A DNA stretch of 7,511 nucleotides. Origin: Gammaproteobacteria bacterium (GTDB lineage: Bacteria > Pseudomonadota > Gammaproteobacteria > Xanthomonadales > Xanthomonadaceae). Every line of letters starts with the position of its first letter. The stretch's first letter is position 1. Made by a program: the position numbers and the translations under genes. Of the stretch, positions 6,196-7,511 are shown piece after piece. The DNA is taken from NCBI GenBank assembly GCA_026398715.1, contig JAPLSI010000169.1, positions 1 through 7,511 on the forward strand. The letters are read 5' to 3'. Below the pieces are notes generated by a model that worked only from the letters and a program-made list of their open reading frames with translations, was not told where the DNA came from and did not search any database.

Positions 6196-6211
6196 CACCA
6201 GCGCGGCTTGT

Positions 6212-6312
6212 CACGTGGTGGAGCCACGTGTGCGCTTTCCTTGATTTTTTGTGGGGAAGTAGGAGGGCCTCGCGCTGCGGACTTGGCCCTTAGGACGTGG
6301 TTGGACCACGTC
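6212..6312. repeat. duplicated ACGTGG palindromes flanking a GTAG-headed palindrome (REP-like)
   Basis: CACGTGG (6212-6218) and CCACGTG (6224-6230) form a perfect 7-bp stem with loop TGGAG. GACGTGG (6294-6300) and CCACGTC (6306-6312) form a second with loop TTGGA. The two hairpins share the core ACGTGGT, GGA, CCACGT and a following TGC, so they look like diverged copies 82 bases apart. Between them, GTAG at 6259-6262 precedes AGGGCC (6264-6269) and GGCCCT (6285-6290). The layout of a GTAG head plus palindrome resembles REP elements known in Stenotrophomonas and relatives. Copy number in the genome cannot be judged here. Confidence 0.5.
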
Positions 6313-6350
6313 TGCTTCTTCTCGAACAATCGCGTTGGTGAATCGGGCGA

Positions 6351-6509
6351 CGTCGGGGGCCGGTAGGCATCGCGAAGTGGTGCAGGACGCAAGGAACGAA
6401 AGGCATGGATGCCCGAGTGCCGCGGGCGCAGGATGCGCATGAGCGGCCGGCCGACTTCGAAAACATGGACGTTTTCGATGTCGGGCGCGATGCCTACCGG
6501 CCACCGGCG
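6351..6509. repeat. 24-bp inverted repeats enclosing a chain of short palindromes
   Basis: Arms at 6351-6374 and 6486-6509 match at 22 of 24 positions in inverted orientation. The inner 17 bases (GGCCGGTAGGCATCGCG at 6358-6374) are a perfect inverted match to 6486-6502. Between the arms lie short palindromes at 6381-6391, 6402-6413 and 6426-6438, and a 14-nt-arm hairpin at 6451-6484 with one T-T mismatch. No target-site duplication is evident outside the arms, and no transposase is present, so a MITE is possible but not supported by flanks. Confidence 0.7.
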
Positions 6510-6547
6510 CTGCGAGTTATTTCCGGACGGCGGTTAGGAGCCAGAAT

Positions 6548-7511
6548 TCAGCTCGCGACGCGGCGGATTTTTGCGCCCAATCCGCCAAGTTTTTCTTCGA
6601 TGTTCTCGTAGCCGCGATCGATGTGATAGATGCGGTCCACTGTCGTTTCGCCAACGGCCACCAGGCCGGCCAGCACCAGCGACGCGGAAGCGCGCAGGTC
6701 GGTGGCCATGATCGGCGCGCCGGTCAGGCGCTCGACGCCGCGGATGATGGCGGTATTGCCTTCGATGCGGATGTCCGAGCCCAGTCGCTGCAGTTCGTTC
6801 ATGTGCATGAAGCGGTTTTCGAAGATGGTTTCGCGGATCACGCCCACGCCGTCGGCCATGCAGTTCATCGCCGCGAATTGCGCTTGCATGTCGGTCGGGA
6901 ACGCCGGATACGGCGCCGTCGTCAGGCTGACCGACTTCGGTCGCTTGCCGTGCATGTTCAATTCGATGAAATCCGTGCCGGTGTTGATCTGCGCCCCGGC
7001 TTCCTCGAGCTTCTGCAGCACGACATCCAGCAAGTCGGCGCGGGTGCGTCGGGCCAATACCCGCCCGCCCGTCATCGCGCCGGCGACCAGGAAGGTGCCG
7101 GTTTCAATGCGGTCAGGCATCACGTCGTAATGGCAACCGTGCAGGGTGTCCACGCCTTCAACGATGATGCGCGCCTTGCCGGCGCCTTCGATCTTCGCGC
7201 CCATGGCAATCAGGCAATTGGCCAGGTCAACGATCTCGGGCTCTTCCGCGCAGTTGTCGAGCACGGTGGTGCCGCGCGCGAGCGCCGCGGCCATCAATAC
7301 ATTTTCCGTACCGGTCACCGTGGCCATGTCAAAACTGTAATGGCCGCCGCGCAATCCGTTCGCGGCGCGGGCCTTGACGAAACCATTTTCGACCACGACG
7401 TCGGCGCCCAGCGCCTGCAGGCCGCGGATGTGCTGGTCCACCGGCGCGAGCCGATGGCGCAGCCACCGGGCAGCGACACTTCGGCGTGGCCGTGCCGTGC
7501 CAACAGCGGGC
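6548..7511 (-). CDS. murA: UDP-N-acetylglucosamine 1-carboxyvinyltransferase, 5' end outside the window, with an apparent frameshift
   Basis: MurA transfers enolpyruvate from phosphoenolpyruvate to UDP-GlcNAc in the cytosol, the first committed step of peptidoglycan synthesis and the target of fosfomycin. The visible part corresponds to about the last three quarters of a 419-residue family. The catalytic cysteine is in [13 protein letters not shown] (Cys codon 7459-7461). Further matches include [86 protein letters not shown] and [18 protein letters not shown], with the stop at 6548-6550. The reading frame breaks between GSR and the expected PVD: one C is missing on the coding strand near 7441-7446, so the Cys-containing segment and the rest lie in different frames. 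murA is normally essential, so a sequencing or assembly error is likelier than true inactivation. The frame from 7444 to the stop is otherwise intact. It is convergent with DUF3108. Confidence 0.93.
6562..6597 (+). terminator. candidate intrinsic terminator antisense to the murA 3' end
   Basis: GGCGGATT (6562-6569) pairs perfectly with AATCCGCC (6579-6586) around a 9-base loop. AAG and then TTTTTCTT (6590-6597) follow. This is the form of a Rho-independent terminator for + strand transcripts. It lies within the last murA codons, where the T-run also encodes Glu-Lys codons on the other strand, so coding constraint could explain part of it. It would end the candidate GGA-rich RNA or read-through from the purM operon. 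Confidence 0.45.
7441..7447 (-). other. murA: one-base deletion (frameshift) in murA
   Basis: On the coding strand the Cys-containing frame reads G-S-R and then R-W-T-S-T. Shifting by one base gives P-V-D-Q-H, which matches the conserved MurA GxRPVD-H segment. Restoring a third C, so that CGCCGG becomes CGCCCGG, rejoins both halves in one frame. It lies six codons after the catalytic Cys and about 65 bases from the window end. Confidence 0.85.

Follow-up and report, generated by a model that had tools for sequence, protein, structure and literature searches.

The GGA-rich stretch between the DUF3108 and murA genes of the window (the whole 7,511-nt stretch of DNA analysed here) is very likely a composite of mobile palindromic elements settled in the convergent gap between these genes, with a 51-bp double-hairpin insertion element of Gammaproteobacteria as its core. 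For this element, our comparisons revealed dispersal, nesting within a larger repeat, an exact empty site and tandem copies that recur every 51 or 52 nt; its stems covary, and both of its hairpin loops hold to CA(N)GGANG. The original prediction had placed here a dedicated sRNA gene of ~400 nt that acts as an RsmA sponge. The stretch gives no support for such a CsrB/RsmZ-type gene: it has no Rfam match, a scan recovered neither a sigma-70-like promoter nor a terminator belonging to it, and it is a dispersed multi-copy repeat. It is probably a cluster or composite of dispersed hairpin-forming DNA repeats and not a single regulatory-RNA gene. The prediction had also counted dispersed copies against itself should they prove unexpressed, and dispersal is what we found. 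Its interpretation of the GGA loops as candidate RsmA sites is supported by two loops with the full RsmA/CsrA consensus and by the covarying stems of the nested element, without the dedicated gene, while the separate class that it envisaged survives in changed form, as a family of mobile palindromic elements and not as a class of RNA.

Several observations behind the prediction were reproduced. The + strand carries 13 GGA triplets in 6220-6541 against 2 on the − strand, and direct counting confirmed that the + strand of 5960-6211 holds none. Across 6196-6597, GGA occurs 14 times, whereas 2000 dinucleotide shuffles average 9.1 and 3.1% of them reach 14; the number alone is only mildly unusual. 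The claim of strong structure was likewise borne out, with folding that beats the shuffles at z −5.05 on the + strand and −5.80 on the − strand; since this holds on both strands, as expected of inverted repeats, a + strand RNA is not singled out. GGA triplets do lie in apical loops, although the minimum-energy fold places six there and not the seven first counted (6220, 6303, 6385, 6407, 6431 and 6467; at 6303, just the two G are unpaired), and the full CANGGANG is present in two of the six, with motif starts at 6404 and 6464. The hairpin formerly taken as a terminator (~6556-6595) was not called as one and lies inside the 3′ end (6548..6597) of murA, a − strand ORF ending at 6548. The terminator scan of the stretch yielded one terminator-like site, at 6293-6313, against 0.9 expected, and the promoter scan of the stretch yielded none of sigma-70 type. 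The Rfam search proposed alongside the prediction gave no match on the stretch (whole window, E up to 10), and a search of ten relatives (E up to 0.5) gave none on the 51-bp element.

The range 6196..6597 proved too narrow, covering only the second part of a repeat that starts at ~5951. Using blastn of the window gap against loci of genome G001 and an alignment of 11 G001 loci, some partial, with the window, we delimited a composite dispersed repeat at 5951..6526 (+), which fills the gap between DUF3108 (+) and murA (−). G001, the MAG Gammaproteobacteria bacterium RIFCSPHIGHO2_12_FULL_63_22, is the closest genome among those searched; its locus L001 was the sole DUF3108 relative returned (91% identity in the best segment) and holds a shorter relative at the same DUF3108/murA gap. 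Searching G001 with 6196-6597 returned 17 matches on 10 contigs. By blastn, the matches begin at 5951 in seven copies, at 5953 in L004 and at 5963 in L003, the end at 6526 was set by the L004 match, and the two ends share a short AGCGGTT/AACCGCT similarity, seen by eye only. The full composite was found in the window and G001 only, and short pieces, mostly 6404-6449, were found in 16 other genomes (99 searched, with the best 6 candidates scored in each). Seven of the 12 placed copies (the window, L001 and ten other G001 loci) lie between convergent genes, ~30 bases or less from both gene ends or slightly overlapping them, the element ends being set roughly. The others comprise two in ++ gaps (L005 and L006), one in a -- gap (L012), one in a -+ gap (L013) and one without a downstream gene (L011). 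For copies in convergent gaps, orientation is uninformative on sense.

Within the composite, a 5′ block (5951..6195, assigned no strand; blastn, alignment and GGA count) is conserved among copies and is followed on the + strand by two modules. Module 1 (6196..6340; fold and alignment) is closed by a stem in which 6196 pairs with 6340, has a middle that varies among copies and contains two GGA hairpins, both supported by fold and alignment. The hairpin CACGTGGT-GGA-GCCACGTG (6212..6230) is not invariant, its loop being GAA in L001, L007 and L012, and the hairpin GACGTGGT-TGG-ACCACGTC (6294..6312) carries the GGA at 6303. The long stem of module 2 is formed by a 5′ arm at 6351..6374 (+) that is 92% complementary to the 3′ arm at 6486..6509 (+). 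Four arm types occur among copies, with a fifth in L004; these very different arm sequences are each largely self-complementary, as if rewritten together, and the joint change looks more like DNA-level palindrome correction. Between the arms, the GGA at 6385 sits in the loop of a weak predicted 3-bp hairpin (6377..6391, +; TGC/GCA pairing at 6381-6391 by eye). The hairpin CGAAAACATGGACGTTTTCG (6458..6477, +; fold and alignment) has CANGGANG at 6464-6471, in contrast to L001, L002, L003, L005, L006, L007 and L011, which have AAAAAACAGGACGTTTTTT.

Alignment of the composites exposed a nested unit, since the window and L005 carry a 50-51-nt insert that the other copies are without, including L004, which is otherwise close to the window there. 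The piece common to other genomes is 6399-6449 (6399..6449, +), and R1, a covariance model of the 51-bp element built from 23 copies, matches the window at 6399-6450 with 73.3 bits (E 1.9e-13). Core hairpin 1, GGCATGGATGCC (6402..6413, +), forms a 4-bp stem round the inner letters of CANGGANG at 6404-6411, and core hairpin 2, GCGCAGGATGCGC (6426..6438, +), has CA(N)GGANG as well, in most cases with the first N absent (fold and alignment for both). An outer stem pairs 6419-6423 with 6443-6447 (6419..6447, +; helix 2), and the third GGA of the element lies in an AGGAG 5′ of the outer stem's 3′ half.

The letters of hairpin 1 are almost fixed among 102 distinct rows (C6 in 101, A7 in 100, G9 in 102, G10 in 100, A11 in 100 and G14 in 102), apart from N8 (T70, G15, A7 and C6, with 4 rows lacking it) and N12 (T80, C15, A5 and G1, with 1 row lacking it). 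A7 and A11 are fixed while the letters opposite them vary, which argues that the actual letters of the loop are preserved, beyond its being a palindrome. The stems covary, an outcome for which the prediction had proposed a check: 98.3% of 1322 cells are paired, and double-change cells number 113 against 18.7 in shuffles, in an alignment that was fitted to the structure and thus leans in its favor. The murE/murF group of nine alone yields 16 double-change cells against 5.7, and its loops keep GGA. As a strand test, G-U cells were compared with A-C mismatch cells over 169 rows; the stems contain 27 against 16, a difference that is not significant (P 0.13).

R1 matches were identified in 81 of 297 family genomes (E up to 0.01) and, with E up to 0.001, in 72 of the 299 genomes sampled from the order and 56 of the 229 sampled from the class; the samples overlap, with G001 in all three and family genomes included in the order sample, and the counts per genome are lower bounds, as no more than 19 or 25 candidates were scored. 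One plasmid record, that of Lonsdalea populi (NZ_CP072857.1, 11 kb; L267), carries the element antisense within a DNA primase gene, and such a plasmid copy is a possible carrier between genomes. No match was found in the phages and E. coli genomes searched or with a second plasmid query, and none in viral contigs with one exact 30-base pattern. In three loci of genome G057 (L025, L120 and L121), a further large palindrome, GATGGGTTTCGCTGCGC...CTACCCATCC, surrounds the core and is apparently a different dispersed repeat.

We next consider placement in genes, for which 205 distinct copies were counted. This count excluded R1 matches of more than 60 nt and copies whose 25-nt flanks were identical, kept tandem copies in one ORF separate and includes two truncated matches of ~28 bits (L259). 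Of these copies, 103 are situated inside called ORFs, which represent 51 host families, with 90 in sense and 13 in antisense orientation. By family, 41 hosts carry sense copies only, seven antisense only and three both, giving 44 sense against 10 antisense (P 3e-6 against a 1:1 null; P 0.02 against a 2:1 null, which allows two tolerated sense frames and one antisense). An initially near-exclusive sense orientation was rejected, as the ratio moved from 53:1 to 65:5 and then 90:13 with the addition of genomes. Among the 90 sense copies, 55 use frame 1, 34 frame 0 and one frame 2; the near absence of frame 2 implies that tolerance of the encoded peptide matters and explains much of the sense bias. 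The antisense frames of the element are at least as open (stop-free) as the sense frames. The other 102 copies occupy 30 ++, 29 --, 18 +- and 5 -+ gaps, with a neighbor missing in 20; there is no intergenic strand bias (30 ++ against 29 --), and convergent gaps exceed divergent ones (18 against 5, P 0.01). Genes were called with a home-made codon score trained on the window and partly retrained for L247-L266, which fails at low-GC loci, so that copies there were counted as intergenic, ten of them without any neighboring gene called. The names purL, murE/murF, mazG, hisC, ileS, trpC, prmA, hmgA, rsmH/ftsL, argF, pgsA, DUF3108 and murA were given by eye from translations or come from the original prediction.

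The genes that contain the element include, by eye, purL, murE, ileS, trpC, prmA and hmgA, and some placements coincide with putative ribosome-binding sites. At the murE/murF junction, GGAGC lies a few bases before the next start codon (seven ATG and one GTG) in eight of nine genomes, while the ninth (L123) has two tandem copies and AGAAGC. The same GGAGC/start arrangement was found at another junction, at the ORF end in L064. A further putative ribosome-binding-site placement lies upstream of the gene that follows Xoo5: at L127:2131-2254, this Rfam sRNA stands directly upstream of an element copy, which precedes an argF-like gene. A T-rich terminator precedes the element in L126, L127 and L136.

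Evidence for insertion comes from prmA, where the element is present in two of six genomes of one genus and the other four are empty, each gap spanning exactly 51 columns; R1 found nothing above 13 bits in the four empty loci. The same prmA site is occupied in L209, outside that set of genomes, and the pgsA-like protein of L051 contains, by eye, 17 residues that are absent from that of the window (1733-2290). In hmgA-like genes, the element lies in sense orientation in L069, L079 and L224 and antisense, at nearly the same site, in L215. Where different genomes share an occupied site, as in prmA and hmgA, an old insertion that has since been lost from the others could also account for it. Inspection of the prmA site by eye showed no target-site duplication, a point against a mobile element, as is the lack of a mobilizing enzyme in the searches described below. 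We propose that the element enters DNA as a unit of 51 nt, facing either way, both between genes and in frame within them, and would be moved by some enzyme or by host replication or repair.

The loops connect the element to RsmA/CsrA. CANGGANG is the motif published for Rsm/CsrA. Core hairpin 1 most often reads CATGGATG, identical to motif B of Pseudomonas putida cfcR, which was tested by GGA-to-GTT replacement (PMC6849547 for both motifs). The element carries CANGGANG in predicted hairpin loops, as an RsmA/CsrA site does. The regulator that the prediction assumed for the host group is indeed common, with a CsrA gene in 58 of 60 family genomes searched; G001 has four CsrA matches, of which three exceed the cut-off and the fourth falls short of it, and is the sole genome of the 60 with four. 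CsrA was found in 33 of 35 genomes with at least three element matches and in 27 of 35 element-free genomes, namely those outside the 56 class-sample hits, a difference (P 0.08) confounded by genome completeness. Judging from these motifs, RsmA binding of transcribed copies is plausible but unproven: a copy transcribed with GGA on the RNA may be bound by RsmA/CsrA, and at murE/murF-type sites, where the third GGA would serve as the ribosome-binding site of the next gene, translation would be governed by RsmA/CsrA. Any RsmA binding in this window would depend on DUF3108 read-through and not from an sRNA gene of the stretch's own.

How the mobile element should be understood depends on whether its loops serve RNA or DNA. 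One reading takes the element as RNA at heart, a portable RsmA/CsrA site that spread because it subjects host mRNAs to RsmA, the antisense and intergenic copies being by-products. We hold it only tentatively, as rather improbable. In its favor, the loop letters match the Rsm consensus even where in-loop pairing is lost, the sense bias arises although antisense frames are at least as open, GGAGC recurs just before start codons and CsrA is widespread among family and element-bearing genomes. It is weakened by the share of the bias that peptide tolerance explains, by the even intergenic strands and by the G-U and A-C counts. RsmA as the reason for the loops is further questioned by antisense in-ORF copies, which keep them, and by the presence of CsrA, which is not clearly tied to the element. 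The other reading, to which we grant somewhat less than an even chance, explains the covariation by template-switch correction of imperfect palindromes and the loops as a recognition site for a DNA enzyme, with the resemblance to RsmA sites coincidental. The few G-U intermediates, the composite long-stem arms that change together between copies and the lack of intergenic strand bias fit this account, but two different hairpins converge on CA(N)GGANG, the form that a tested Rsm site also has, and A7 and A11 are fixed against varying partners.

Explanations other than this mobile element fare worse. A CsrB/RsmZ-like sponge sRNA of ~400 nt, titrating RsmA via six GGA loops, is very unlikely in our judgment, even though six apical-loop GGAs lie on the + strand, two within the full motif, CsrA genes are common in the family, and RsmU of Xanthomonas campestris (Xcc) shows that RsmA-binding sRNAs can arise from 3′ UTRs (PMC7694677). 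Besides the missing Rfam match and a scan that gave no sigma-70-like promoter or terminator for it, such a gene is at odds with the many dispersed copies, their variable middle and the loss of GGA from one hairpin in three copies. Convergent gaps exceeding divergent ones, together with short dispersed palindromes, would also suit REP elements moved by a RAYT (Y1_Tnp) transposase, and Y1_Tnp was found in 10 of 12 element-bearing genomes against 7 of 12 others. However, G001 and G143, both searched, gave no Y1_Tnp match, 30 Y1_Tnp transposase loci had no element (best 16.9 bits, E 0.095, at chance level), and 103 of the 205 copies lie inside called ORFs; we therefore rejected RAYT as the mover and consider this origin extremely unlikely.

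Returning to the 51-bp mobile element, its wider role as a portable RsmA/CsrA site is a tentative proposal on which we would not rely: its landings across the class, in frame in housekeeping genes and at ribosome-binding sites, may repeatedly subject genes of the cell wall and of core metabolism to RsmA, and dense arrays, the window's among them, might act as distributed RsmA sponges. This raises a direct question, namely whether RsmA binds the inserts and whether filled and empty alleles differ in their dependence on RsmA. No earlier description of the element was found in open-licence papers or Rfam.

Among known systems, CsrB/CsrC and RsmX/Y/Z resemble the stretch in carrying several GGA hairpin loops on one strand (six by minimum-energy fold here), whereas the stretch is dispersed in many copies, matches nothing in Rfam and, by the scan, shows neither a sigma-70-like promoter nor its own terminator. 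In RsmU of Xanthomonas campestris, whose group has RsmA, a GGA-bearing sequence likewise follows a coding gene, but RsmU, compared here by description only, is a processed, expressed RNA from the comEA 3′ UTR. By analogy, transcribed composite copies could act as 3′ UTR RsmA sponges. The RsmU GGA-to-AAU mutant still bound RsmA and still acted (PMC7694677), which calls for caution on counting GGAs. The cfcR site of P. putida has the same eight letters, CATGGATG, in a predicted stem-loop (PMC6849547), but is a single native site that overlaps a start codon and is not dispersed. REP elements and MITEs are also short, dispersed and palindromic, with more copies in convergent than in divergent gaps, while the element has no RAYT link, has no mobilizing enzyme that we could find and is often in frame. 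In habit, the element resembles the Rickettsia palindromic elements (RPE): protein-coding palindromes are described as a striking feature of Rickettsia, where short palindromic repeats lie in gaps and in frame inside unrelated genes (PMC10969869), as the 51-bp element does. Compared by description only, RPE are ~150 bp long and belong to Rickettsia, whereas the element is 51 bp long, gammaproteobacterial and equipped with two Rsm-consensus loops. As a 51-bp counterpart of RPE whose hairpins bear the site consensus for a global RNA-binding regulator, it would connect selfish DNA with protein evolution and with post-transcriptional control.
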